Assembly (NCBI GenBank): GCA_032622095.1
Contig: CP136067.1
Span: forward strand, 95,782,707 to 95,846,706
DNA: 64,000 bases
Source of the DNA: Siphonodentalium dalli
Lineage: Eukaryota > Mollusca > Scaphopoda > Gadilida > Siphonodentaliidae
Direction: 5' to 3'
Positions 7,005-40,000 of this stretch are shown in pieces (within the stretch, counting starts at the first letter, position 1; every line of letters begins with the position of its first letter). Below the pieces are notes generated by a model. That model searched no databases and had not been told where the DNA came from. It saw only the letters and a program-made list of their open reading frames with translations. Position numbers and translations under genes: made by a program.

Positions 7005-10000
7005 CTTCAAATAATGAACAGATATATAATATTTATAAATAATATTACTTTTTCCTTAAGGGAAGCCCGAAACTGAACTATATGGATTACGTCTCCGGCC
7101 TTGTGTCAATCAGGAGGGTTAAAATTTTATTGCTGTGCCGACCCTACTCACATCCGTGTCCAGATTAGTCTCGCATGAATACACCCGCATTCTATCTATT
7201 GTCTAGTCAGTTTTTTATTTCCGACTTAATCATGAGATTTGCGAGTCGCGGGGTTGGGAATGGCACCACCATGGGAGGGATCTATGATAGTTCAGTTTCG
7301 GGCTTCCCTTAAGGAAAAAGTAATATTATTTATAAATATTATATTTTTCCGCCAAGGAGAAGCCCTCAACTGAACTATATGGATTAGAATGCAAGCCCAG
7401 GAGGAGGCACGAGCAATAAAGTTAATTAATATCCAAATTCGATGGGAATGTACTCTTCCGAAACAGGATTCATGTAAATGTGATTTAGTCATGAATCAGA
7501 TATGATTATGTTACGTGAAAGAGCTCCCAATTCAGATTACGACATTGCTCAAATGTGTACCGCACCCCCCCCCCCCCCTTGTTTTTGGAATAAACATCCC
7601 AGGTAGTGCCATATAATTCATGCTAGCGAGACAATCGAGCAAGTATAACTTTGCTGCATCCTATTCTCTTTGTTATCTTCTCCGCTCTCGCGACAGTTCA
7701 CATTATGAACTGATGTCACATGCAGCCATTGTGTATGCCATAACATATCAGAATGCTTATGATACACCAGGGAGCAAATTAACTGGAATCGCATCGCGAT
7801 TTGCCACTGAAATGTGGATACCGGTAATAGCGAGGAATTTTTTATACATGTATGATGTTATAAAAATGCTATCTAATCATGTCAATGTGAGATTATTTGC
7901 GAATCAGATATCGAAAGTAAATTGCTCCCTGTGATACACAAACCAGATATAATAAAAGGTCGCAGACCACATGTCCCCCGACTCGAGTGGTAAACTTCAT
8001 GATTGGAATTGTTAGAAGGATACTATTTGCAACAATGTTATACAGTATATAGATGTTGCAAACCACCGCAAAATTTCTTGGACAAAACAACCCGATGAAC
8101 AAACGCATGCAAACGCGAAAAAATGATATTTTTGTATTAGCTATATAGATGTTGCATATCACCAACATGTTAGGAACAATATCCCAAAGTTTAAATCTCT
8201 ACATTTAAAACTGTAGGTGGAGTTGATTACACCATGAAGGTACCCAATCTCATCCAAAAGGCAAAAATGTTCCAAATTTTCTAAGTCGAAAACCCCCCAA
8301 AAATATGGAAAAAATGATATTTTTGATTAGCTATATAGATGTTGCAAATCACCAACATGTTAGGAACAATATCCCAGAGTTTCAAATCTCTACATTTAAA
8401 ACTGTAGGAGGAGTTGATTACACCATGAAGGTACCCAATCTCATCCAAAAGGCAAAAATGTTCCAAATTTTCTAAGTCGAAAACCCCCCCCAAAAATATG
8501 GAAAAAATGATATTTTTGATTAGCTATATAGATGTTGCAAATCACCAACATGTTAGGAACAATATCCCAGAGTTTCAAATCTCTACATTTAAAACTGTAG
8601 GAGGAGTTGATTACACCATGAAGGTACCCAATCTCATCCAAAAGGCAAAAATGTTCCAAATTTTCTAAGTCGAAAACCCCCCCAAAAATATGGAAAAATT
8701 TATATTTTTGATTAGCTATATAGATGTTGCAAATCACCAACATGTTAGGAACAATATCCCAGAGTTTCAAATCTCTACGTTTAAAACTGTAGGAGGAGTT
8801 GATTACACCATGAAGGTACCCAATCTCGGACGCACGGACACACGGACGCACGGACGCACGGATGCACGGACGCACGGACGCACGGACGAGGGTCATTACT
8901 ATAGTCCTCCGACGGAAACGTCGGGGGACAAAAATGATATGCTGCAGATATCATAGCGAGGTATGAGGTTTCATTAGATCATGCCACACATCTGTACTCC
9001 AGCCTCGTATAATGTAGAGAGCAGGGAACGCCATCATGATCCAAGGTATCATTGCATACCAGTATATATGGGATTAGAGAACACCACTGAGGACTTGATG
9101 AACAAGCATAGAAGCATCAGTGGTCTATGATGGCGCACATAACGAGTGTTGGGTACATTTCGAAATGATCAAATGTAGCAGAATGATCAAAATTGCAAAA
9201 TGACCGGTGAAGGAGTGGCCTGGAGGTATCCCGAAGGTATTACGATTCCAGGAGATTGGACCCCATCGTGTGGAGATGTGGGCCACTGCACCGTGGGGAA
9301 GAGATAGAAGGCTGGTTGGTGCAGCTCTTGGAGGCACGCAACAAGTCTTCCCCACCCAGATCATTCAGCCTTTCTTTCCTACCGGAGAAGGAGTGGCCTG
9401 GAGGTATCCCTAAGGTATTACGATTCCAGGGGATTGGACCCCATCTTGTGGAGATGTGGGCCACTGCACCATGGGGAAGAGTTAGAAGGTTGGTTGGTGC
9501 AGCACTTGGAGGCACGCAACAACAAGTCTTCCCCACCCAGAACATTCAGCCTACCGGTGGAGGAGTGGCCTAGAGGTATCCCGAAGGTGTACGATTCCAG
9601 GGGAGTGGCTGGACCCCATCTGTGGAGATGTGGGCCACTGCACCGTGGGGAAGAGGCAGAAGGCTGGAGCAGCTCTTGGAGGCACGCAACAACTCTTCAC
9701 TTCCCCACCCAGAACATCCTCCAAAGGCTACAGTGCTGGATCTTTCCTGACTGAGATAAATACTTGGACTTATCGCAAATTGTTGAATTAAATGAAGCAA
9801 TATAAGATATCAACCTGTATCCTCATCCTGTACAAAATCACTTACCAGCGGAACATCAGAATCCTCGTCCGACAGTGTGCCTGGTGACCCACTGTCGACC
9901 CGCGATTCTTGCTCATCGTCGTCAAACCTGCCGACGCCACGCGATGCAGAGAAGCATGTCGAGATCGACGCCAGCCAACAGAATTGGCTGCATCAGGTTG

Positions 10001-19000: not shown

Positions 19001-22000
19001 TCACATTATTATAATCAATAAATTTGAAAAATGATCAAGGAAATATGGGTTGATACAAAAATCGGACTTGGCACTTTTTCCCTTCTGGGAAGTTTCTATA
19101 TCCCCTAATTTGCAGAAGATAAAATGCATAATCGAGGTGAATAATGGGTGAACATCACCAACATCAACTGGAGAACTTCAATCTGATCCTAGGTCTCCCA
19201 TAGTAGTTGAGGCCTAAGTAGAATGAGGTTCCCAGAGGGTGAATTTGGTGATTCTAGCCCGCTATGCAGATAGTGTCACTAAATTCACCCTCTGGGGGCC
19301 CTCATTCTGCAAATTACAGGCACACTATTTGCAGACTTGCTTCTTTGGCTTGAAGCCTCATTTTATTTTCGATAACCTTAAAGGGAAACTGCACTCAAAT
19401 TTCCAGTATTTTCAGGCAAATGTATCAAATAAAATATTACATTACTTGCTGAAACAGGCTCTCTTCAGGAGCCTTTATTCAGCATCAGAGGGGCTTGCAG
19501 CCCCTGCACGAAGGGGCTTGCGGCCCCTGTAGAAAGGAGCTTGCAGCCCATTCATGTGTTAGCAGGCCTGCGGCACCTGTGTGCATTGCACACATGCCAG
19601 ACAGATCCTATTCTTTATACATAGAGATAATATTTATTGCGTTACTTGTTGATGGATTCCACATCTGGTGACTTCTTCTATCTCCATAATTGAAAACGCT
19701 GAAAACACTTGAGTATATACTTTAATCGCGTCGCTCAATTAGAACAAATCCTATCCTTGTGATTGAAAATTACATCGCATTGCTCGCATCGCAACGCCGT
19801 GTGAATACCTCAGTGATATTATGTTTGTCCTAATTGAGCATTGACACAGAAGTTGGATCGCCATCTTAAAAAGCCTAGACGGGTGTCGATAGTTGCAAAT
19901 ATGAGGACAATCTGTCTGATAGTTTCAGAGAACAAATATCCATTTGTAACACTTTTGAGCTACCAGAGAATCATTTATATTTCTATCCTGCTACTTACTT
20001 CTGTTGCTGTTTAAGCTGATCGATTTGTTCCAGTTTAGATTTATATTTATATTCTGCTTCTTACTTCTGTTGCTGTTTAAGATCGATTTGTTCCAGTTTA
20101 GATTTATATTTATATTCTGCTTCTTACTTCTGTTGCTGTTTAAGATCGATTTGTTCCAGTTTAGATTTATATTTATATTCTGCTTCTTACTTGTTGCTGT
20201 TTAAGATCGATTTGTTCCAGTTTAGATTTATATTTATATTCTGCTTCTTACTTCTGTTGTAGTTTAAGCTGATCGATTTGTTCGAGTTTAAATTTATATT
20301 TCTATTGTGCTACTTACTTCTGTTGCTGTTTAAGCTGATCGATTTGTTAGAGTTTAACTTCTTCGCTGCTATGACGTCTGTAACTATTACGGATGTAAAA
20401 GTGCACATCGTATGCTATATGGTCCATAGTACCTACAGACCAACTTCAGCACACTAGTAGCCCATTATTCATAACTGGAACTCAGAGATTACATCAGAAT
20501 AATTGTATCTCGAAGTTTCAAAAAGTGATTGATGTTCCACGATTGTGAAGGATAATAGCCTTTCAAATGAGTCAGTTTTATGGTTCTTGTGATATTGCCG
20601 TTATATTTTCCCACTGTAAACTGGCAATAACGCCAACAGCCCAGCATACGACGTCATAACGTCATTCAGCAGCGAAGAGGTTAAATTTCTATATTTCTAT
20701 TCTGTACTCACTTCTGTTGCTGTTTAAGCTGATCGATTTGTTCAAGTTTAGATTTATGTTCTGATTCGACTTTCTGTATCATTTCTTTTATCATCTGCAT
20801 GAAAGCGTTGAACTGTAAAATGAAGATGTGACACCATGGCAACTAAACAGATTTGACAACGGAACAGGCAGGAGATCAATAACCAGTCTAAACATGGAAT
20901 GATTCAGTCAAAAGAGATGTACAGTAATGTCCTAAATAATCGACTCCTTAACCAGAGCAGAATTATGGGTAACTTTTCAGGATTTAGTCGGAAATATGGC
21001 TTGTTGGCATTCATCAGAAAGCTCTCAGTGAGAGCTTTCCGATGAACGGCAACAAGCCATATTTACGACTAAATCCTGAAAAGTTACCCATAATTCTGCT
21101 GTGGTTAAGGAGTCGATTACTTAGGGCATTACTGTACAAGGCAGTAACATGGCAATAAAAGGACATTGACAACTAGAGTTGGGACTGTCCCAGTAGGACT
21201 AAGGATACCTCCCCCCACAGTGCAATTGGGCTAGATTAATTAAGGGTAGCCATATTAACATATATTTTTTCCAACAAAAAAAAACCACAAAGAATACAAG
21301 TTCAGACAAAATTATGTATGTTCTGATAAATTTCTAAGCGGAAAAAGGGAAATAACTCCACTAAAAAATAATCAAAGTGGTAAATATGTGCACCAAGTTT
21401 CAAATATATTTACAAGAAAATGTAGGAACACAAGATCGGACATAATTATTCATGTTGCGATAAATTTGTAAGTCAAAATAGGGAGCTCCACTAACAAAAG
21501 TCGGACAGACCTCACAATCGCAGGTGCACAGGTTCCCAAGGTACAGTAATGCCCTAATTAATCAACTTCTTAACCACAGAATAATTATGGGTAACTTTTC
21601 AGGATTTAGTCGGAAATATGGCTTGTTGCCATTCATCGGAAAGCTCTTGGCGATTAATTGGGGCATTACTGTACTAAATATAAATGAAAAATGTAGGAAT
21701 ACAAGCTCAGACAACGTTGTATCCAGTACACACAGTAAAACTAGATCCCATGGTTTGGGCACTAAGTTTACCAGACTCACAAAACTAGTACTACATATAT
21801 GTTACACAGGTTCACTGAACTGGGACTCGGAATCGATTCCCTTCTGCTTAGGAAAGTTTCTTTATTATCAAATTTCTACAGAAACTTCTTCAAATAGATT
21901 CTATTTCTTTTTTAGTTTAGTTTCTCTAAATCCTCAAATTGGCGGACAAAACAATGCATAAGCGAGGTTTCCAATGGGTGTACATCACGATATTCACCAT

Positions 22001-25000
22001 TTAGGGAACTTCAATCTGAGTCTATGTCTCCCATAGCAGATGGGGCCATGCAGAATGAGGTTCCCAGAGGGTGAATTTAGTGATGCTAGCCCGCTATGCG
22101 GGATAGCGTCACTAAATTCACCCTCTGAGAACCTCATTCTTCAATGACAGGCACACTAAACTCAGGCTTTCTGGTGTGCAAGGTGTTGTATATAGAATAC
22201 ACCCATAGTAGCCGAGAATACAAAATTTTCACGAGTGGAATTGTGGTTTTAACCACGAGCCTTCTGGCGAGTGGTATTGTGGTGAAAATTTTGTACTCTC
22301 GGGTACTATGCGTGTATTTTATTTATGCCATAATTATTATTTTTGTAATTTTGTTCGCGAATTCAACTACCCCGCTGTTTACTTTGAATGATGTGTATTC
22401 TCACCCAGAGACACACACAGGACGCTATAAGGAATGTGCGTCACGCGTAGTGATGCTTACATTAACGTCATGACGTCATCCTATTTATGAGCGATCAGTC
22501 ACCTGGAATTATCATTCATAAGTTTCCTAGTTAATATAGCACTAGCAAGCTACATTTGATTGAAATTCATGCAATTTTCCTCATATCTAATTGATATCAT
22601 AACAACTTCCAATTTCAAATGAATGTGACATAGGAACTATTTTGCTAACTACGATGTAGTTCTACTATGGGTATACACGTTTAACACATGAAATTACGTA
22701 TGAAATTTACACCCACAGTAGAAATTTATACCCACAGTAGGAAGCTGTATACCCACAGTAGGGTGTAAAGATGGAATTTACAAAATAGGTGTTATACACA
22801 CAATAGAACAGGCAATTATGGTATAAATTCGCTTACCCTGGCAGTCATGATACCTGATCAGACACATACTTACCTCTAATGGTTACACATAAAAACATAC
22901 CTGAGCAAGAGATAGATTATTGTCGATACATAATGGCAGTAAAAATGGTAGAACTTTGGTCGCCATGACGTCTTTGGTGAGTCCCAGTTTCGTGTGGTTC
23001 AAAGCAACTTTATATATACCTAAAATATATGGAGATATACCGATAAACCTAAAAAAAACTTTATATATACCTAAAATAAATGGAGATATACCTATATACC
23101 TAAAACATAGAATTTATATTACTTAAAATATATGGAGATATACCTATATACCTAAAACACACACTTTATATATACCTAAAACACATGGAACTAGAGGTGT
23201 GACTGTCCCAATGGGACTAAGGATATATACCCCCCATGTTTTTAAAATACTAAGATGTTTCACATGTCAGTAAACATTTAGTTAAAATAATAAAATAACA
23301 GTTCCCATTGCAGGTGCACAAACCTAACCGTAATCTTAAACCTATTGACCGAAAAATGTAGGAATAAAAGCTCGGACAAAATTATGCATTTTGCAAAAAT
23401 GTTCTAAGTCGAAAAAGGGGAATAACTCCACAAAAAAAGTCGGACAGACATCGTAATCGCAGGTGCACAGGTTCTCATGGTACTAAATATCAGTGCCAAG
23501 ATTAAAAAACATTGACCTAAAAATGTAGAAATAAAAGCACGGACAAAATTAGGCATGTTGCAAAAAAATGTTTAAGTAAAAAAAGGGAAATAACTCCACC
23601 AAAAAATGCCGGACAGACGTCATAATCGCAGGTGCACAGGTTCCCATGGTACTAAATGTCTGTGCCAAGTTAAACAAATATTGACCTAGAAATGTAGGAA
23701 TAAAAGCTCGGACAAAATTATACATGTTGCAAAAAAATTTCTAAGTCGAAAAAGGGGAAATAACTCCAACAAAAAAAGTCCGACAGACGTCATAATCGCA
23801 GGTGCACAGGTTTCCATGGTGGTTGATGCCTGTGCCAAGTTTCACTGAAATTGATCAAAAAACAGCTGAGAAAAACTCCGGACAAATTTGTGTCCACGGA
23901 TGGATGACAGACGGATGGATGGACGGACGGACGAGTTGACTCCAGTATACCCCCCCTAACTTCATTGCGGGGGGTATAATTTCGTTGCGGGGGGGGTATA
24001 ATTATCAATGAGATGGTACACCATTAGAAGCCAAATTATTAATTTTCGCCAGTTTCAACCACGTGCAGACTTTTTTTTAATGTTAGTTAGAGTAATGCCC
24101 TAAATAATCGACTCCTTAACCATAGTAGAATTATGGGTAATTTTTCAGGATTCAGTTGGAAATATGTTGCCATTCATCGGAAAACTCTCAGTGAGGGTGA
24201 GTGATTATTCCTATTATACCATGTCAATGTTTTAGAAAGACAGCAAAATTATTTTTTCGGTTTTCAATAACAAAATGATATTCTTCATAACAAAATGATA
24301 TTCTTCAGTATTTATGAGTCTAGTTTATGTTTCATATTTGGTTTCAATATTTTTTTCAACAGAACAAATAGCAAAGAGATATTAAATTAGATTTTGTATC
24401 TTGTTGTAGTAACTGGAAGTCTGTAACCCATGAATACTTCTGTAACTAGAGGTGTGACTGTCCCAATGGGACTAAGGATACCCCCTGTGTTTTAAAACAC
24501 TAAGATGTTTCACATGTCAGTAAACATTTAGTTATAATAATAAAATGATAGATTCCCAATGCAGGTGCACAACCCTAACCTAACCCTAATCCTAAACCTA
24601 TTGACCAAAAAATGTAGGAATAAAAAAAGCTCGGACAAAATTATGCATGTTGCGAAAAAGGGAACAATTCCACAATAAAAAGTTGGACAGACGTCATAAT
24701 CACAGGTGCACAGATTCCCATGGCACTAAATATATGTGCCAAGTTTTAAAAACATTGACCTAAAAATGTAGGAATAAAAGCTCGGACAAAATTATGCATG
24801 TTGCAAAAAATGTTCTAAGTCGAAAAGGGGAATAACTCCACCAAAAAAGTTGTACAGACGTCATAATTGCAGGTGCACAGGTTCCCATGGTACTAAATAT
24901 CTGTACCAAGTTTTTTAAAAATTGACCTAAAAAAATGTAGCAATAAAAGCTCGGACGAAATTATACATGTTGCAAAAAAATTCTAAGTGAAAAAAGGGGA

Positions 25001-28000
25001 TAACTCCACCAAAACAATCCTACAGATGTCATAATCGCAGGTGCACAGGTTCCCATGGTGGTTGATGTCTGTGCCAAGTTTCACGGAAAATGATCAAAAA
25101 ACAACTGAGAAAAACTCTGGACAAATTTGTGTCCATGGACGGACAACGGACGGACGATGGACAAGCTGATTCCAGTATACACCCCCCCACCCCGCAACAA
25201 AGTATAGATACGAGTAAGGTATATAGATATTTTATTATTTTCTCACCTAGTACACTCATGAGCACAGCGGGCTCCCTGGTTGGTATCTGTGGCAACAGCG
25301 GCAAAACTTCATCGAGGACATACCATTTATCCATGTACTCCATTAGCTTACCGAGACAGAGTAAACAATTCACTCGGATCTGAAATGCCAATGACATTGT
25401 TAGTTGTCATGACAACCATGTACTCCATTAGCTTACCGAGACACAGTAAACAATTCACTTGAATCTGAAAATCAAATTACATCGATAGTCATGACAACCT
25501 CGTACTCCATTGGGTTACCAAGACACAGTAAACAATTCACTTGGATCTGAAAATTGAATGACATCATTAGTCATTATGACAACATCCTACTCAATTAGCT
25601 TACCGAGACACAGTAAACAATTCACTTGGATCTGTAAATCGAAAGACATTGTTAGTTGTCATGACAACCTTGTACACAATTAGCTTACCAAGACACAGTA
25701 AACAATTCACATGGATCTGTAAATCGAAAGACATTGTTAGTTGTCATGACAACCTTGTACTCAATTAGCTTACCGAGACACAGTAAACAATTCACTTGGA
25801 TCTGAAAATTGAAAGACATCATTAGTCGTCATGACAACCAGGATTCATGCTGTCATAGGCCAAATTGGCAAAAGTTTGTTTTACCCCAAAATAGGAAATC
25901 TAATTTAAAAAACAAATTGATTTTGTAACAGGAGCGACATGAGAATCAAAGTTATAGTATCATCATCTGCTAATTGATAAGGCGATACAGCTTAATGGAT
26001 AGCAAAAGGCACTCATAGCAGTGCAATGTAATAAAACAGTAATGAGGATTAACACTATTGAATCCTACGTTTTTTTTTTTTTTTAAATTTGGCCAAAAAA
26101 AAATCAGAATTAGCCAAAAAATTGGCCAACAGATTTTTCGGCCCAGCATGAACACTGATGAGAACCTCATATTCAATTACAGTAATGCTCTAAGTAATCG
26201 ACTTCTTAACCACAGCAGAATTATGGGTAACTTTTCAGGATTTAGTCGGAAATATGGCTTGTTGCCATTCATCGGAAAGCTCTCCCCGAGAGCTTTCCGA
26301 TGAATGGCAACAAGCCATATTTCCAACTAAATCCTGAAAAGTTACCCATAATTCTGCTGTGGTTAAGAAGTTAATTATTTAGAGCATTACTGTAGCTTGC
26401 CGAGCGAAGCGTACAGTTTATTCATGTCTGAAAATCAAAATTATGTCATCACAAGCTCTTTCCCTCAGTTTTCAATGTAAATGACCTTTTTTAAACATAT
26501 TTTGACTGATTTTCACTGATTGGATGTCCTACTTTTACTAAGTTTATGTCCTATACATCATATTCAATGAAACTGAATGAAAATAATTTTATAATGGCTA
26601 ATCAGTCATAATAGCCTAGAAAAATATTCTGAAACATTAGTTGTCTAACAGTTAGTCAGACAAACAATGAAAATAAACTGAGGCATAATTTGTTGGACCA
26701 ACCCCATATTCAAACTTAATAGATCTGTGTTTTCTTGTGATTAAATCACATGCCAAATGTTGAGTCGATCTAAATACGAGGACTAAAGTTATCATTTGGA
26801 AACCAAAACAATTGGTGTATTCTAAGTCCAACAAGGCTATAACTCCAGCAAAATTTGCGGACCAACCCCATATTTGAACTTGAGCTGTGCTTTTTTGTGA
26901 TTAACCCACATCCTAGTTTCTAGTTGATCAAAAAACAAATACTGAAGTTATAATCCCAAAATAAGATGGGCAGACAGACAACGGCTAGACAGACGGATGG
27001 ATGGACAGACTGATTTCATAATACAACTGTCAATGGGAGTATAAAAACTATTTTAATATACCCAAGAATCTCTTTAAAAGGTTCAGGGGATAGAGATCAT
27101 ATTTTTAAGTTACGACTTTGAATATTAATAAACTCACACATAAATCTGACGTTCCGAGGCAGAGTTTCTTTATCCTTGGCACGATGGAAACTTTGAGAGT
27201 TTGGTACTCAATTAGTTCCGCAAACGACGGAATGATATTCAAACAGAGTTCCTGGAAGAAAGAAATACTAAGAATCAGGCCCTTATTAGTGGCCCTTCAA
27301 GTCATTTTAAATAACTATTAGTTATTTGGGGTAAACAGCACTTATCGCATGTTCTACGGATAAAGTTAAATCTAAATTTTACGTTGATAATAAATGCTCT
27401 TTATTGCCAATTATTAGTGCTCCGGGTCAAATTACTCATATGTAAAAAATTTCAGCTCCGAGGATCCAACCGCTTGGTCACCTCTAGCCAAAATATATAT
27501 AAAATAACAACAGATGGACTGTCATCCGGTGCATACCCCCTTGTGACATACCACCTAGTGTGAGCGGACAGACGGACCCAAAAATACGAATTTTCATATA
27601 TGACAAAGATGAATAACTATAGAATGAAAAACCTAAACAAAACGATTGAACACAACATTGAATGTCTTCATAACAGTGGAGAACATCCATACCAAATTTC
27701 ATTGAGATCCAAGAATTACCGTTCAAGTTATGGCCTGAACAGACATCAGACGGACCAAAAAGCCAACATTTCCAGATAAATAAAGATGAATAACTCTAGA
27801 ATGGAATACCCGAACAAATGATTGAACCCTCCATTGAATTTCCTCATGGATGCAAGCACGGACGTACCAACATTTGCCAAGAATATTCATCTACTATCTG
27901 AAAACACTGGTAGTTCATTTTCTTCTTCTCATTTCAATCACACACAACCAAAGCGGACAGCCATCTCCTCATGACCTCTGACCTCACTTCCGTTATTTTT

Positions 28001-31000
28001 AGATCTAGGAGCAATAACTCTATCTATCTCAATCACAAAAATTCTCTCCAGAGTCAAATCATATGTGTAGTTTACACACTAACCAGGGTTCCCGCTGCCC
28101 CCCAAACCCAACCCCCACCCTCATCCACCTGTATTTGATTTCCTGTATCACAATATAAATGACATGATATGATATGCGTATTATTTGAATCGCGATACAT
28201 TGCATTCACTGTGAATGGATACAGCCCTACTTTTTTGGGGACCTTTAATATTATGTTTGTTTGATGGGGTTATTTAATTGATTCTAAATGAACTGTCTCT
28301 TAATCATGACAAATTTGCCTTATTACTCTGATAGTGTAAGAAAGCATAGACATAACAAATATCCCATTATAATAAAATAGAGGCATACATAACCAATAAA
28401 CATGTGAAGCTCTGTGGTCCAGTTGTTAGCACGATAGACTTGTCTTAGCTGTCAACAGATCAAGATGAGTTCACAGCCCGATGATGGTCTAATGTTATAA
28501 CTTATATAAATGGTATGGACCTATAATTCACGTACAATTTGAATACAATAAAATCATGGATATTTGTAATTCTGTAAGTAGATTTCAAGAATTCTTAGAC
28601 AAACATATCTCTGAGTCTGATTAATCACGATTGTTTGCATTCGTAAAATGTTTTCAATATTTCCATGGCTACCTTTGCGTGATCGGGTGAGAAATACACT
28701 GTCTTACTGTAACGTCGTTGGGGGGAATTGTACAAAAGCAGCAAGACAACGAGTTAGGCTATAATTTCAGGCATTAATCTAATAGACCTATAGTTTAAAA
28801 TTTAGAACAAAGCATCTTCAACCTCATATTCTTTTTCACCCATCATATTGACAAGAAGGGTGATTCGAAAATATTTAAATTCTATGATTGAATCGAATCG
28901 AATCTTTGCAGGGTCCTGGTACTAACCTGTATCTGAGAGCTGTTTGACTCGAGCGCACCAAAAATCATCGGCATCACATGGGCTTTGATGTCACTCGAAG
29001 GAGTCTTACTCAATAATAGATTCATATTCTGCATAAAGATCAGTAGAATCTGTGAAATAAAAATCATTGACATTACATGAAGATCATTGTCATTACAAGA
29101 AGATCATTGTCATTACACGAAGATTATTGTCATTACACAAAGATCATTGTTATTACATGAAGATCATTGTTATTACATGAAGACCATTGTCATTACATGA
29201 AGATCATTGACATTACATGAAGATCATTAACATTACATGAAGATCATTGTCATTACATGAAGATCATTGTCATTACACAAAGATCATTGTTATTACATGA
29301 AGATCATTGTTATTACATGAAGATCATTGTCATTACATGAAGATCATTGTCATTACACTTTTGAACACAGGTATAAGCTCTGGTAGGATATGTTTAACAC
29401 TCACCTGTACGGGAGTCTGTATTTTGAACACAGGTATAAGCTCTGGTAGGATATGTTTAACATATTCTTTATCGTTACTCTGCTGAGCGATCTCGAGGAT
29501 GTCGGGTAAAACAAACGGAATCATGTCGTGGTTGATGCACTCGTTAAACAGAGATGGAAGAATCCTCTGTAGATTCACTCTCTGAAAGGATAGAAATAGA
29601 TTATGTAGAAAACATGGATGAGAACAAGCAAATGAATGAAAGATGTCATAATTAGTAGCAAATTCTATAACTAAAAGGGGAATAACTTCATCAGAAATGA
29701 TGATCAGAACGTTATCTTCACACAACCCTTAAATATGTTAAATATGTTTGTGTGTGAACTTGGATCAATAGTTAAAATAGCTGAATCAGCCAAAATTAAA
29801 ACTTTGATTATAAATCTTTAGTTTGACACATTGCTTATTATATTTAGTTTATTACAACCTACGTTTGTAAATAAAATGACATTCAGGATCTCCTAAATGT
29901 GCAAGAAGACACCCAGCATCTTAAAGTCTCATTAAAAAATTAATTGATTTTAAATTACTAGTAGTCGCATGTTAAATATTATTATACTAATTATTTGTTT
30001 GTTATTTTCGATTGAAATTTCAACGAAATTTGAATGTGTATTATACCCGCGTTGAGTTTGACTCAACGATAATTTTAGATTATGAGTGACTTATTGCAAA
30101 TTTGGGAGATCATGTGTCATTACACATTTGATAGATCTTGGGTGACTTTTTGCATGATACAATGTGACAATGACTAATTATTCAGCATTAGTCAAAGCCA
30201 TAGTCTCCCCCTTGTTAGTTTAAGCCAAACATACTTAATGTGTTCTGTTTCTCAGACCCTTTTTTTCAAAAACCGCCATAAACAGAATGAATAGTAAAAT
30301 ATAGACAGACCTTGTTCTTATACCAATCAGAAATATAACAGTATGTTATTGTCAAATGTTTTTCCTTTGTTATGTAAACAAAAGCAAAAAATGTTACGGA
30401 ACATGGCTTTTGTTTAGATCTGGATATGGTAAACATAATGAGCGTTATTTGTTACTGTTTTCCTTATATGGAAATAATAAAGAGCATTTATATCATTTGT
30501 GTGATTAACCAATAGAATTGCACTGTGTTATGTAAACAGAAGCAAAACTTCTGTAACACGAGCAGGTTCTTGTTTACGTACAGGATCGTACGTCTTGACG
30601 ACAATATATAAAACTAAAACTATATATAGTTTAATATTCCTTCTGTTGATGGCGATTTGAACAAATATGAATATTTCTGCAATGCCTTTAAAGTGATATG
30701 AAACATTCCACATAGGTGTTCCCAGAAGAAATAACAAATATTCATGCCAAAATAAGTTATTTTCAGAAATTTGTTGTAAACGAAATTCATGCAGTGACTA
30801 TTAACGCAATCATTGCCGTAATGTTTATGGCCAATAACATGTCCCGAATAAATTTTAACAAAACAGTCTGTTGTACAACTCAACTACATACAGTTTAAAC
30901 AAATCCAGAAGAAAACTTAATCATCAGAGATAACAAATTGAATTATCAGATACAAGTTTAAATGTGTCTAGCTAGATTTATGATCAGTAGTCTTCCTTTG

Positions 31001-34000
31001 TCAAGCGGCAGGAATATTGATAATTCTTAATTTCAGTGAGCGATAAAAAGCACCCAACATAGCCTATTTTTATGAGGGGCAGGTGTCTGAGAAAGACAAC
31101 ATTAATTCTGTTTGGCAAAATAACTGATTTTAGGAAGTCTTTTGAAGAATTGAGATTTCTGTATATTTTCAAATCAATGAATATAGGATCCCATGAAGAA
31201 TTGAGATTTCTGTATATATAATAACCTTTTGTCGTTTAACTATGATTTTTTGTCCTTTGAAGAATTTAGATTTCCGTATATTTTCTTAACAATGAATTTA
31301 GGATCACATAGAGATTTGATATTTCTGTATATATTCTAACCTTTTGTTGTTTAACTATGATTTGTTGTCCTTTGAAGAATTAAGATTTCTGTATAATTTC
31401 TTAACAATGAATTTAGAATCAAATGAAGAATTGAGATTTCTGTATATTTGTTTAGCTATGAATTCAGGATCCCATGAAGAATTGAGATTTCTGTATATAT
31501 TCTCACCTTTGGTAGTTTAACTATGATTTTAGGAAGTCCTTTGAAGAACTGAGATTTTTGTAGATTGTCTTGTTGGAAGAGTGAATCTAAATACTGAAGG
31601 GTCATACAACCAACATCTTCTTCGAAGTATGGAATCTACAACAAATGAAAAAAGTAAACTTTTGAGAAAACCATAAGCAGTAACAAATATATTGAGAGCT
31701 CCAGAAACAAGAGATACAATAAAATTTAATTTAAATCCTAAGTTCTAATGCTACATTATCATCAGCTTCGTACAACAGAAAAATGTGTTAGAAACAACTG
31801 AAAAGTGTGTTAGAAATAACTGAATAATGTGTTAAAAACAACTGAAAAATGTGTCGGAAACAACTGAAAAATGTGTTAGAAAACTGAAAAATGTCTTAGA
31901 AACAACTGAAAAATGTCTTAGAAACAACTGAAAAATGTGTTAGAAATTACTAAATATTGTGCGAGAAACTACTGAAAAATGTGTTAAAATGTGTTAACAA
32001 GTTAGAAACTGTTAACAAATGTGTTAAGAACATCTGAAATGTGTTAGAAACAATTGAAAAATGTGTTATAAACTTCTAAAAGATGTGTTAGAAACAACTG
32101 AAATAGTGTTATAAACTACTTAAAATGTGTTATATATCACATATAACCCATACACTAGGCCTATAAAAACTGAACAAAGTAATATTGGATTAAATGAAAA
32201 CAATCAATTATTACTTTCATTCAATCCAGAAGCAAGCCTGAGTTTAGTGTCTGTCATTTGCAGAATGAGGTTGCAAGAGGGTGAATTTAGTATCACTAAA
32301 TTCACCCTCTGGGGACCTCATTCTGCATGGCCTCATCTGCTATGAGAGACATAGACTCAGATTAAAGTTCCCAAATGGTGAATATTGTGATGTACACCCA
32401 TTGGGAACCTCGATTATGCAAATTTTCATCTGCCAATTTGGGGATATAGAGAAACTAAACTAAAAAATAAATAGAATCAATGTGAAAAAGTTTCTATAGA
32501 AATTTGATAATAAAGAAACTTTCCAGAGAAAATGAGGCTTAAGCAGAATGAGGTTCCCAGAGGGTGAATTTATTGATGCTAGCCCACTATGGATAGTGTC
32601 AATAAATTCACCCTCTGGGGTAGAGTTCACACTGTCCCAAAATTTTCTTGAGCCACAACCTTGGTCACTTGTGAATTTATTTTTAGCCACTTTTCATTTA
32701 TTTCAGCCACATTTTTTCAACCTATATTTTTTGGAGCACGAAAATTAACAAATTCAAATGAAGGTTGTTCCGCACTATCTCCGAAATCTAACTTTCATTT
32801 ACGATGTTAAGGATTTGAATGTTCGAGCTATGGTCACATATGCTTATGTAAATTGCGCTATCAAAACGCAGTGTGCTAACGAGTATTGCAAGTAGATGTT
32901 ACTGTTGATAAGAAATACAAGGCCTTTGTTTGACTAATGTTTGGCAATGTGAAAGCAAGACATTGAATGGATATTTTAATTGAGTACAAACAGGAAACCC
33001 ATTCACTGAATGTGATAAAATTACAACCAGTCGCTGTGGCATAAGCCGAGAATCAATTAGCATTTTCTTTCAATCAGACTGTCTCGTAGCCGGATAGTGT
33101 TACCGGATTGTTAAACTTAATATATCCGATAGAAATTAAGAGCCACACATACCAATTCTTTGAGCACATTAATTTGTACCAACCTTACATAACTGGTCAG
33201 GATCTGGCCGCACTGAAGGCTCGGCATTTAACAGCATCTTCACATAATCACGGAGCTGAGCCGGAATGCAGTTCAAAATCCCTCCTCTCAACTTTCTCAG
33301 CTGTGGGGAAAGTGTGATATCATAAGCATTATAGACAGGGTCAATGGCCAAATTTTTTCGTCAATGCCCAAATAAAATTGCATATGGCCAAAAAGTTTCA
33401 AGTCAATAATCACCTCTCTGAATATCGCCAGATCACATTGAAAGCAAGCCTGCAAATAGCGTGTCTGTCATATGCAGAATGAGATCCCCAGAGGGTGAAT
33501 TTAGTGATACTATCCCGCATAGCGGGCTAGCATCACTAAATTCACCCTCTGGGGACCTCATTCTGCTTAGGCCTTCAACTGATATGGCAGACCTAGGATC
33601 AGATTGAAGTTCCCCAGTTGAAGTTGGTGATGTTCACCCATTGGGCACCTCAATTATGAATTTTATCTTCTGCAAATTAGGGGATATAGAAACTTCCTAG
33701 AATGGAAAAGTAACTAAAAACAATCTTAATTTGATGCTATAGATACTTCCCAGAAGATGAAGCCTAAGCAGAATGAGGTCTCCAGAGGGTGAATTTGGTG
33801 ATGCTAGCCCATTTTGCGGGATAGCATCACTAAATTCACCCTCTGGGGACCTCATTCTGCAAATGACAGACACACTATTTGATTGAAAGACTACAAGCCT
33901 GGATATAGTGTGTCTGACATTTGCAGAATGAGGTCCAGAAAGAATGAATTTAGTCACACTATCCCACATGTCGCTCTAGCATCACCAAATTCACCCTCTG

Positions 34001-37000
34001 GGATCCTCATTCTGCTTAGGCATCAACTGCTATGCGAGACCTAGGATCAGATTGAAGTTTCACAGTTGAAGTTGGTTATGTTCACCCATTAATCACCTTG
34101 ATTTAACTTCTGCAAATTAGGGGATATAGAAACTGAACAGAAGGGAAAAAGTTACGAAAAATAATGTTAATTTGAGACTATAGACGTAGATGAGGTCTAA
34201 GCATAATGAGGTCCCCAGAGGGTGAATTTGGTGATGCTAGCCTGCTGTGTGGATAGCATCACTAAATTCACCCTCTGCGGACCTGATTCTGCTGATGTCA
34301 GACACACTATATCCAGGTAACTGTCGACAGCAGTCAATCAGTAGCTGGCCACCCATGCTTGTCTGGATAACAATTTATCAGAAGTTACACATGCTTTCAT
34401 ATCAAAACAATGATGATTAGCTGCTAGAACGGTGCACTCTCCCAATCAATAGACAATACCTTATGGCTTAATGGTTTCAACAATAGGCAAATGTTTGCTC
34501 ATTTATATTTGTATACAATGTAAGCTACATGGGCTACCATCACTAAATTCACCCTCTGGGGACCACATTCTGCATGGCCTCATCTGCTATGGGAGACATA
34601 GACTAAGATAGAAGTTCCCAAATGGTGAATATTGTGACTTACACCCATTGGGAACCTCGATTATGCAATGTGTCGTCTGCCAATTTTGGGTTATAAAAGA
34701 AACTAAAAAAAAAAAAATTGAAATTTTATAATAAAGAAACTTTCTAGAGAAGATAAGACCTAAGCAGAATGAGGCTCCCAGAGGGTGAATTTGGTGATGC
34801 TAGCTGCTATGCGAGATAGCGTCACTAAATTCACCACTGGTGACCTCCTTCTGCAAATGACAGGTACAGTAGTGCCCTAAGTAATCGACTGCTTAACCAC
34901 AGCAGAATTATGGGTAACTTTTCAGGATTTAGTCGGAAATATGGCAACAAGCCATATTTACGACTAAATCCTGAAAAGTTACCCATAATTCTGCTGTAGT
35001 TAAAGAGTCGATTACTTAGGGCATTACTGTACACTAAACTCAGGCCTGATATTGCAGCTCTCATCTGAGCACACTTGGAGTATAAATTTTGTCATCTCAA
35101 AATTTATTTTATTTTGAGATGAAAAATCGAAACGGTATTTCCAATATGTAACTCCACTTAAATAGTTGGCCGGACCTCATAATGACAGGTGCCGGCGCCC
35201 AGAGTGGCGGCCATCTCATCCAGGCCTGAGAATAAGGTCTAGCATCCTGCATAGTGGGCTAGCATAACTAAATTCACCCTCAGGGGACCTCATTCTGCTA
35301 AGGCCTCATCTTCTCTGGAAAGTTTCTTTATTATCAAATATCTATAGAAACTTCTTCACATAGATTCTATTTCTTTTTCAGTTTAGTTTCTCTATATCCC
35401 CAAATTGGCAGACGACATATTGCATAATCGAGGTTCCCAATGGGTCACCATTTGGGAACTTCAATCTGAGTCAATGTGTCCCAAAGAAGATGAGGCTATG
35501 CAGAACAAGGTCCCCAGAGGGTGAATTTGGTGATTCTAGACCGCTATTCGGGATAGGGTCACTAACCCTCTGGGAACCTCATTCTGAAAATGACAGGCAC
35601 ACTAAACTCGGGCTTGGTCTCATTCTGATCCTCTATAACTTAGCCATTTATGCATGAATTTTGATAATTTATGATATGACAGTTTACTACAATGTGCAGC
35701 AGATGCACACAGACAATGAGGGCCTGCACCAACTTTCTTTCTTACCAGAATCATGGCCCTTATTTTTTATTTATAGATATTTTATGGCCAGAAGCTTAAT
35801 ATGTTGAACAAACATCAGGCGATTCAATTCATATTTGATACATGTATCTTTCACAACAATATCTCAGGTCATCGAAGAATTTCCAACACATTAATACTAG
35901 TTTCATGTAAAGAAGCAAGTATGCAAATAGTGTGTCTGTCATTTGAGTATGAGGTCCCCAGAGGGTGAATTTATTGATGCTATATATCCCGCAAAGCGGG
36001 CCAGCATCACCAAATTCTCCTTCTGGGAACCTCATTCTGCTTAGGCCTCATCTTCTTGGAAGTATATAGTCTCAAATTAACATTGTATATAGTTAACTTT
36101 TCCCTTCTGTTCAGTTGTGTTGGGCTTGATAGACTGTTCCAAAACCATGCACATACAACTTTTTATTCATGTTTATAAAATGTTGGAATATTTCAAATGG
36201 TACAAAATAATTCCCTAATTTGCAGAAGATAAAATGCATAATCGGGGTGACTAATGGGTGAAGATTACAAACTTCAACTGGGGAAATTCAATCTGATCCT
36301 AGTTCTCCCATAGCAGTTGAGACCTAAGCAGATGAGGTTCCCAGAGGGTGAATTTTGTAGTGCTAGCCTGCCATGTGGGTTAGCGTCACTAAATTCACCC
36401 TCTGGGAACATCATCTGCTTAGGTCGCAAATGGCAGACACACTATGCAGGCTTGTTAAGAAGTTGAGATGAAGACACAATAATACCTCTTCTGAGTTCTT
36501 TTTGAAAGCTGACAGCTCATTCCGACATTCAAATAACGTTTTCCCTCTGTTGAATACTGAGTAGACTAGTACCCCATAGGAGAACATGTCACTGGCTAGA
36601 CCGCATATCAAAGTTAGAGCGTATTCTGGAGCCAAATAGTCGAGGTTAGGCTGTATCACATACGGCAGACTAGGACTCCATTCTTTGAATGGATATAGTG
36701 GCTGAAATAAAAGAAAGTGAAGTCATGCTTGCTTATACTGTATAGAGTAATGCCCTAAATAATCGAATCCTTAATCACAGCAGAATTATGGGTATTTTTT
36801 CAGGATTTAGTCGGAAATATGGCTTGTTGCCATTCATCGGAAAGCTCTCGGGGTGAGAGCTTTCCGATGAATGGCAACAAGCCATATTTCCGACTAAATC
36901 CTGAAAAGTTACCCATAATTCTGCTGTAGTTAAGGAGTCGATTAATTAGAGCATTACTGTATATACAGCTCAATCACGTAAGCAATAGTCCACACTCGGG

Positions 37001-40000
37001 GCAATGATCACAGGTATAGGTGAGTATGTTACTAATGCTCCTTGCAGTGACACCTATCATGATGGCTTCATAGTGGCGGTGTTTGGTGTTTGTAAAAACT
37101 CATGACAGCATATATCACCGACAGTGAGGAGGCTTTACGAAGTGGCGTTTGATGTTTATAACATAACATAAATATGACAGTGAGCTTGTGCCGAGACCAC
37201 TACCCTTCGTGTGGTGCTACTAAAAATAAGAGCGAGAATTTTAATAACAGCGGGTTGCAACATTATTACGCCGCCAGCTAAATCGAGCCAGACATGATCC
37301 GAGGTGACCAACATGTTGACAAACAAATGTAAGGTGAGTAAATATCCGGTGGGGAATTATACGGGCGAGGAAATGTCCTAATTGTTAAAATACTGGAAAT
37401 ACTGTTTATTTATGCCATGCAAGGACCAATTCTTGATAATCTTCAACAGTGCCACCGGAAAATAAAACAGTGCCAAAAAGCACAATATACTGTTATACAA
37501 TAATACTGATTAGTCGGTTACCAAATTTATCCACTTTATCAACAGATAATCAATTATCTGATTAATCGTGGCAGCCCTATAAATTAAGTCATGCAAAATA
37601 AATTTCCCATTTCTTATGTTGAACTTATCAAAACATTATTATTCCTTATTTTTATGATAATCACTTTCTGATCAGCAGAGTTGAAATTACTGCACTAGCT
37701 AAGCAGAAGTCAAAAACTGCTATTTCCCAGTTCCTATTCCTAATTTTATAATATTCACTGCCTGATCAGCAGATTTGGTATTTGCCTAGCAGTAGTCAAA
37801 AGCTGATATTTTCCAGTTACCATTCCTCATTTTATAATACTCACTGCCTGAGTTGGCATCAGCCTAGATCATACCATGAAATCTCTACTATTGCTAACGC
37901 CTAAAGAGATCATTTTCCACCAGTACAAAACCTTGGAACTTTTTGCATGCCGGGTATATATTTCGTAGTTATTATCTGTTCCTTAATAATGTACTTCATA
38001 TTCACTGCCTGATCAGCAGATTTGGTATTTGCCTAGCAGTAGTCAAAAGCTTATATTTTCCAGTTACCATTCCTCATTTTATAATACTCACTGCCTGAGT
38101 TGGCATCAGCCTAGATCATACCATGAAATCTCTACTATTGCTAACGCCTAAAGAGATCATTTTCCACCAGTACAAAACCTTGGAACTTTTTGCATGCCGG
38201 GTATATATTTCGTAGTTATTATCTGTTCCTTAATAATGTACTTCATTGAAGGTGACGGTCCCAACTCGAAATTGCATGCTTATCTGTGACTTTTCTGAGC
38301 CGATATCGCAATAAACATTGAATTAATTACCCAGGAGAAATTCCATAATTGAATGCGACACAAAGCAAAATCGTTCACAAAGTCACTTAAATCGTGAAAT
38401 TTCGAGTTAGGACCCTCACCCACAGAGAAGTACAAATATTAAGGAACATACAATAACTAAGAAATATATTGCCTGCATTATTTTTTCAACTTCATGAGGT
38501 AAAAAAATATATACCTGTGTTTCTGGTGACATGCAAGAAAAAAATAGGGGACGGCGGGTGGCTTTTCATTATGCGCAAAATAAATATGAATACCACCCCG
38601 CTCCCACTCTTCTTCTCCTTGTTTGTAATGTACTATAAAATAATAAAACTAAGTACATAATATTAGAATATACATGTAATTTAATTTATTGTTTTATTGA
38701 ATAAAACATGAAAAAATTTATTTGATTCATCTGTGACCTAACTTAAGTGTGGTATAATTTCCAGTTTAATAGTACATGCGATGTGTCCATTTTTTCAGAA
38801 ATGAATCAGTTTACAAGGAAAATAAAATCGGATGCGTAATAATTTAGCAAAATCAATCAAATGAAAATGGTCGGGGGCACCGGAATAGGGGCGGGCGGGT
38901 CACCAGAAATGCAGATCTTTTTTAATTTGGCCTAAGGTTCCCTGTCAAAACTTTAAACAGTTCCAAGTTTTTGTACTGGTGGAATATGATCTCTACGGGA
39001 GTTAGCCAGAGTAGAGATTCATGGCATGATCTAGCATTAGCCTAGCAGAAATCAAAAGCTGATATTTTCCAGTTCCCATTCCTAATTTTATAATACTCAC
39101 TGCCTGATCAGCAGAGTTGGCATTAGCTAAGCAGAAATCAAAAGCTGCTAATTTCCAGCTCCCATTCTTGTTTATCATGACACTCTCTGGACAGATGTTG
39201 TGATGCATCATCTTCACGTCATTGTGTAGAAAGGCTAATGCTTCCGTCAGCTGAAAAATTTACATAATTTTACTCATTCCAGCAATAACACGGTGGGGAA
39301 TCACCTGGTTTTGAGTTGATGAGTATAATGCATTCAAAATGGCCGAGGCGATCGCAAACGTGACCAGAAATGAGGAAAAAGGTAATAAACTAGTATAATG
39401 TATTTTGGCTGCTACGGGAATATGCTATACTATTTTTCAAACAAGCCAATACATGTACCTCATTTGTGTCACAGTTGTTTGCTCTAACATTCTGACCAAT
39501 GTTGTCAGTTGAAGGATTCTCCTAGATGTATGAACTTGTGTATAATCCACGAACCTCTGACTGGCAAGAATGTTATAGAAAACTACTGAGTATTTCCGAA
39601 CAAATAAGGTATCAACTAGTTTTAAAAATAAACTGGCATATGCTCTTAACAGTCAAAATGCTATGTTTTGTGTAAGTTCCTCATATATTTAGTTTTTGTG
39701 GGTTTGCACATTTTGAATGTGTGGTACTCACCAACCTCAAAACCACGTGATTATGAGTCTACATAGAGGATCTACAACGAGTCCCCAGTTTATAGCGAAG
39801 TTAAAAAAAGAGTCCAGTAAATAGTAGATTCTATTTATTACTTGATCCAAAACCTCCATAAATCATAATTAAAGCAACAAATGGGACGTAAAACTAACAA
39901 CAGCTTCTATAAAGCCTGCGATGACGTTTCACATAACGATTTGTTGTTTGCCTCCAAAAATAAATAGTCCCAGATAAATAAGACTCTTTGGCATATTTAA

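Follow-up and report, generated by a model that had tools for sequence, protein, structure and literature searches.

Copies of exon edges in the SCYL2 introns of Siphonodentalium dalli as a probable instance of local tandem duplication found throughout the genome

Within a 64,000-nucleotide (nt) stretch of the genome of the scaphopod Siphonodentalium dalli (GCA_032622095.1, contig CP136067.1, positions 95,782,707 to 95,846,706; the whole stretch is called the window below), several introns of a gene that we name SCYL2 by its similarity to the human protein hold copies of the edge of the adjoining exon, in most cases together with its splice site. The question raised by this locus is whether duplication is aimed at exon-intron borders, whether selection keeps the copies as spare splice sites, or whether they are what remains of duplication that falls anywhere. 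We found that local tandem duplication forms a background across the whole genome, of which SCYL2 is a repeat-rich case and itself nothing special. The copies are very probably the product of frequent neutral tandem duplication that is not aimed at splice sites and is tolerated when it runs across the edge of an exon, whose body keeps the nearest site.

SCYL2 exons were located using the human protein as a guide: 13 of them, all on the minus strand, extend from 46683 to 20712 and together form a single open reading frame of 1835 nt, which contains a kinase domain. Their numbering agrees with that of an earlier note on this DNA; the last SCYL2 exon has a match near 6.1-6.4 kb, and the 13 modelled exons all lie above 20 kb. 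Each exon was compared by blastn with its own surroundings. Diverged direct copies of near-edge coding sequence were present in the adjacent intron at exons 4, 7, 8, 11, 12 and 13, the same six exons at which the earlier note had reported them:

39101..39250, minus strand: SCYL2 exon 4 (gene model)
39034..39102, minus strand: nearest exon 4 copy, exon positions 62-131, ending before the donor (blastn)
37641..38098, minus strand: exon 4 3' edge copied three times across the donor, GT kept, in or beside a 247-nt tandem pair (blastn, copy scoring)
31507..31635, minus strand: SCYL2 exon 7 (gene model)
31125..31503, minus strand: exon 7 3' edge copies with at most 65 coding bases, two of which span the donor (blastn, tandem listing, copy scoring)
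29405..29581, minus strand: SCYL2 exon 8 (gene model)
29359..29399, minus strand: 41-nt copy, the only one of exon 8, matching positions 120-160 of this 177-nt exon from intron base 6 onward, donor not included (blastn)
25247..25379, minus strand: SCYL2 exon 11 (gene model)
25335..25839, minus strand: 85-nt array with five upstream acceptor copies holding 44-49 coding bases, overlapping the start of exon 11 (blastn, copy scoring)
22901..23019, minus strand: SCYL2 exon 12 (gene model)
23006..23189, minus strand: 52-nt array with three acceptor copies holding 11-19 coding bases, overlapping the start of exon 12 (blastn, copy scoring)
20712..20812, minus strand: SCYL2 exon 13 (gene model)
19973..20356, minus strand: six tandem copies of the exon 13 3' edge and donor, period about 63 nt, 39-61 coding bases (blastn, copy scoring)

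Border-spanning copies numbered three at exon 4, two at exon 7, five at exon 11, three at exon 12 and six at exon 13, with identities to the original of 0.81-0.93. The GT or AG was kept in 18 of these 19 copies: it was intact in 6/6 copies of exon 13, in 5/5 acceptor copies of exon 11 and in 2/3 copies of exon 12, the third having AA. The copies are direct and arranged head to tail (exon 8 has a single copy), and at five of the six exons, exon 8 being the exception, the duplicated unit holds the exon edge, the splice site and intron bases. The earlier description of 30-60 coding bases plus a donor or acceptor fits exons 7, 11 and 13 roughly; it does not fit exon 4, whose copies draw on coding positions 62-150 of 150 and thus on up to 89 coding bases, nor exon 8 (no donor), nor exon 12 (11-19 coding bases). 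No whole-exon copy was present among the SCYL2 copies examined, none of the 13 exons had an inverted coding copy, and no new intron inside coding sequence was seen, each array lying within one intron between exons that join in frame. A retrocopy from spliced mRNA was rejected as a source, since the border-spanning copies contain intron bases.

The genome around the window comprises 2.23 Gb in nine contigs, and exons of other genes were drawn from it in two samples. For the first, 280 rows of chaperonin, kinesin, class I tRNA synthetase and SNF2 exon matches were reduced to 248 typed rows and to 209 after a near-duplicate filter, from which 120 were drawn at random and taken with 950 nt on each side; the second draw consisted of 58 exons with 320-nt flanks and also includes paralogous genes. 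In the first sample, copies were counted if they held at least 20 coding bases and lay within 400 nt, a threshold below which the SCYL2 exon 12 copies fall, and exon limits are the ends of domain matches, accurate to within some tens of bases. In this sample 16/120 exons had a direct copy of coding sequence nearby, and in the second 12/58, and because these exons belong to other genes the pattern is genome-wide, with about one in six sampled exons elsewhere having a similar copy. Copies touched the exon edge at 13/120 and 9/58 exons, respectively, and splice-site-crossing copies were recognised by eye at 13 of the 120 first-sample exons (locus L111 from the printed sequence, unscored). Copies at both edges of one exon did not occur in the first sample, and L110 holds parts of both ends. 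Across the sampled arrays and SCYL2, border-spanning copies were 0.69-1.00 identical to the original, depending on array and part. The orientation was exclusively direct, with inverted coding copies at 0/120 exons of the first sample, the one in which they were counted; length-matched flank intervals of this sample had direct copies in 59/240 and inverted copies in 46/240 cases. This orientation, together with the head-to-tail arrangement and the intron bases in the SCYL2 copies, supports the recurrent tandem duplication that the earlier note had proposed.

Several sampled loci show long or well-preserved arrays. A kinesin exon (L078, G000:C2:63734408-63736523) is followed in its intron by 28 border-spanning copies of a 34-nt unit made of its 3' edge and donor, 27 of which keep the GT. 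Four upstream acceptor copies with up to 81 coding bases and 91-98% identity accompany an SNF2-family exon (L032, G000:C6:220293185-220295204), and the donor copies of L102 are 96-97% identical. Two seemingly paralogous SNF2-family exons (L023 and L094, about 0.76 Mb apart on C5) both have a 47-nt acceptor array; most L023 copies have GG where the exon has AG, and 16/18 are without AG. These two loci are seemingly the same exon in two paralogues, so that the 16 arrays of the first sample represent at most 15 independent ones.

Are exon borders preferred? In SCYL2, 38% of the intron sequence belongs to direct duplicates no more than 1.5 kb apart. Of the 25 borders, 8 are 12 nt or more inside such a duplicate, against a mean of 8.28 for shifted positions (p = 0.63) and a share of 33% for deep-intron positions, so that the claim of a number of cases far beyond chance is not confirmed. 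This count takes in pairs of mobile elements, and a stricter test was therefore made on other genes. At the 120 loci, tandem sequence covered 7.4% of positions within 100 nt of an exon match versus 10.2% at 300-900 nt; by zone, coverage was 6-8% within 100 nt, 8-13% beyond and 2-6% inside exons, where the ends stood above the middle. Edge-touching copies were found for 39/240 random intronic intervals and 13/120 exons (p = 0.20), and around SCYL2 for 10/26 intronic intervals and 3/13 exons. There is thus no detectable border excess in the sample, and the coverage profile is the shape expected if duplications land anywhere and those that break exons are removed. Neither measure supports the centring on exon-intron borders that had been suggested; intronic tandem duplicates without a border bias, the outcome that the earlier note itself had said would speak against its reading, are what the sample contained.

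Retention of the splice dinucleotide was compared with that of other dinucleotides. From original to copy, the border dinucleotide was kept at 0.91 versus 0.82 for random dinucleotides (17 arrays, p = 0.14). Since selection acts on the original border, a comparison among the copies was added; it gave 0.82 versus 0.84 (10 arrays, p = 0.62). Both results lean on the paralogous L023/L094 pair, whose copies are often without AG; when this pair was left out, copy-to-copy retention was 0.908 versus 0.826 (8 arrays, p = 0.22).

Several observations weigh against neutral duplication without regard to borders and against SCYL2 as an ordinary member of the background. The gap between 7.4% and 10.2% coverage is not significant (95% interval -6.3 to +0.7 points), and coverage peaks, at 12-13%, 150-300 nt from exons. 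In the first sample, tandem sequence 50-300 nt from the exon was found after it at 34 loci and before it at 16 (p = 0.006; coverage 15.7% versus 6.7%), which would point to a position bias, but Tandem Repeats Finder (TRF) gave 17 donor-side versus 9 acceptor-side cases. With flanks of 320 nt the donor-side excess was 21 versus 8 in the first sample (p = 0.015) and 11 versus 7 in the smaller second draw (p = 0.42); the asymmetry is unconfirmed, and for lack of replication it was dropped. SCYL2 stands above the sample in exons with copies (5/13 versus 16/120), an excess that is not significant at the level of edge-touching copies (3/13 versus 13/120, p = 0.19); its flank controls are raised as well (10/26 versus 39/240 edge-touching, p = 0.013), direct copies under the same criterion being found for 11/26 of them. 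Finally, original-to-copy retention without L023 and L094 was 0.975 versus 0.819 (15 arrays, p = 0.018), a figure that purifying selection on the original alone could raise.

Under neutral tandem duplication, introns would gain short tandem duplications of tens to a few hundred bases at a high rate, and these would often be amplified afterwards. Where a duplicated stretch by chance straddled an exon edge, the exon body would still be joined to one intact splice site and the surplus copies would end up on the intron side. Such events would be tolerated because the splicing machinery probably pairs sites across the exon and uses the one nearest the exon body, and the copies would later mutate, amplify or be split by mobile elements like other intron DNA. 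We infer from these patterns that the copies are neutral, that they are tolerated through exon definition and that they arise by slippage or end-joining repair.

Best placed among the alternatives, and compatible with neutral origin, is the tentative possibility that alternative splicing really uses some of the neutrally arisen copies. At L032 (the four acceptors of 91-98% identity), L102, L062 and L119 the copied sites are intact and have flanking sequence of their own, and boundary repeats can change splicing in human paralogues (PMC2812944). The reading frame argues for caution: the distance to the nearest copy is divisible by three in 5 of 16 arrays (L110, with its copy on the far side, omitted), which shows no frame preference, and the other 11 would shift the frame; translation continued past the real donors of SCYL2 exons 4, 7 and 13 runs into a stop ahead of the border-spanning copies. 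Arrays such as L032 and L102 are natural experiments on how the spliceosome chooses among near-identical sites.

It is improbable that selection keeps the copies as spare, decoy or regulatory splice sites, as the earlier note had considered. The GT or AG in 18/19 border-spanning SCYL2 copies, the original-to-copy retention without L023 and L094, which is above background, and the exon 12 copy at -51, which would lengthen that exon in an open frame, are all in line with such selection. Over all arrays, however, it is not supported: conservation between copies is not significantly above background with or without this pair, 16/18 L023 copies lack AG and the exon 8 copy lacks a donor, 5/16 nearest copies lie at a multiple of three, and the border-spanning copies of exons 4, 7 and 13 lie beyond a stop. 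Less probable still is duplication targeted to exon-intron borders, for example through DNA breaks linked to splicing or transcription. The 6 of 13 SCYL2 exons with copies and the donor-side excess of the first sample at both flank lengths would fit this, but tandem coverage shows no excess at edges, exon edges are not above random intronic intervals, and the donor excess does not recur in the second, small draw. An assembly artefact or capture by transposons is hardly credible, since the few near-identical copies that would suggest it (one L119 copy at 100%, and the 247-nt pair in SCYL2 intron 4) stand against border-spanning copies that are diverged overall and in SCYL2, an exon 13 array that matches only itself and its own exon in a genome search skipping very common words, and the absence of inverted coding copies from the 120 first-draw exons.

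Neutral tandem duplication would leave arrays to later rearrangement, and the exon 13 array lies apart from its exon, with one further feature between them:

20358..20680, no strand assigned: 323-nt element that has terminal inverted repeats and a TTAA motif on either side and stands between the exon 13 copies and their exon

This element occurs at 40 or more places in the genome, its own included (40 of 3392 candidates were scored), so that at least 40 is a lower bound, and the others are 87-89% identical. Its TTAA flanks and inverted-repeat ends resemble those of piggyBac-type elements, which we take as a likeness of structure. Searched against the genome with very common words skipped, the exon 13 array matched only itself and its own exon; a dispersed satellite was rejected as its source, no second place having been found. 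From the element in between and from the matches of the array to itself and its exon alone, the array was probably once contiguous with exon 13 and later split by the 323-nt element.

Other repeats lie in and around SCYL2. The 247-nt tandem pair at 37751-38246 is 99.6% identical and itself holds exon 4 edge copies; it is probably a young duplication of an older duplication. Other tandem arrays reach to within about 20 nt of the acceptors of exons 2 and 9 and the donor of exon 3, and about 15 repeats of a 20-nt unit at 29063-29357 end about 13 nt ahead of the exon 9 acceptor. The intron DNA at 32230-36460 is crowded with repeats that are related to each other, direct as well as inverted, and several hundred bases long; they are probably mobile elements. 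In the 3' part of the SCYL2 region, a 193-nt tandem array (97% matches) occupies 8117-8827 and a 178-nt array 9203-9698. Elsewhere in the genome, a 277-Mb contig contains 447 COX1-like codons that stay open when read with the invertebrate mitochondrial code (L001, G000:C1:108127492-108128832); they represent either mitochondrial DNA copied into the nucleus or a join made in assembly.

How does the rate of local exon copies compare with that of other animals? At 80% identity, copies in the fetched flanks were equal to 10.3% (first sample), 10.9% (second sample) and 45% (SCYL2) of coding nt, and 2.9%, 4.8% and 15.4% of coding nt, respectively, had such a copy. A whole-gene search at the same identity found homologs for about 2% of human exonic nt, with untranslated regions far above the mean, and the same measure gave 0.08% in the fly and 0.06% in the worm (PMC9013439). 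The share of coding nt with a copy is therefore in small excess over human and in large excess over fly and worm, by methods that differ from those of PMC9013439, and this suggests that the genome is unusual in its rate of local exon copies. It is quite possible, though we stop short of asserting it, that the genome is an outlier among animals, with tandem duplication so active that about one conserved exon in eight has copies of its own edge (13/120, 9/58); splicing would then routinely choose between near-identical sites, and a large stock for alternative sites and new introns would be at hand. If the rate holds genome-wide, it provides a measure of tolerated duplications that include a splice site, a figure required for modelling how introns are gained and how alternative sites originate.

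The earlier note had known of no described system like this one. Among the entries listed by a literature search there was no report of exon-edge copies at a comparable rate; the kind of repeat, by contrast, has been described for human paralogues, in which internal tandem repeats occur at exon-intron boundaries (De Grassi and Ciccarelli 2009, PMC2812944). These are likewise tandem units at boundaries with a minisatellite-like expansion; they concern recent paralogues only, with transcripts that support the altered introns, whereas the copies described here lie in conserved families and are known from DNA. Tandem duplication that includes splice sites also links our loci to studies of introns derived from tandem arrays (Zhuo et al. 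2007) and of internal gene duplication (Gao and Lynch 2009), which deal with introns that are new or alternatively spliced, while here an existing intron is lengthened. Similarly, in the RdRp gene of potato (PMC4974935) the duplicated segment brings the parental acceptor, a putative branch site and an exon edge, and in contrast to this case and to those from Drosophila (PMC2891723), no new intron was seen inside coding sequence here. Tandem exon duplication (PMC9013439) shares with our loci exon-homologous sequence in the adjoining introns, and differs in that it copies whole exons, whereas single edges are copied in S. dalli.

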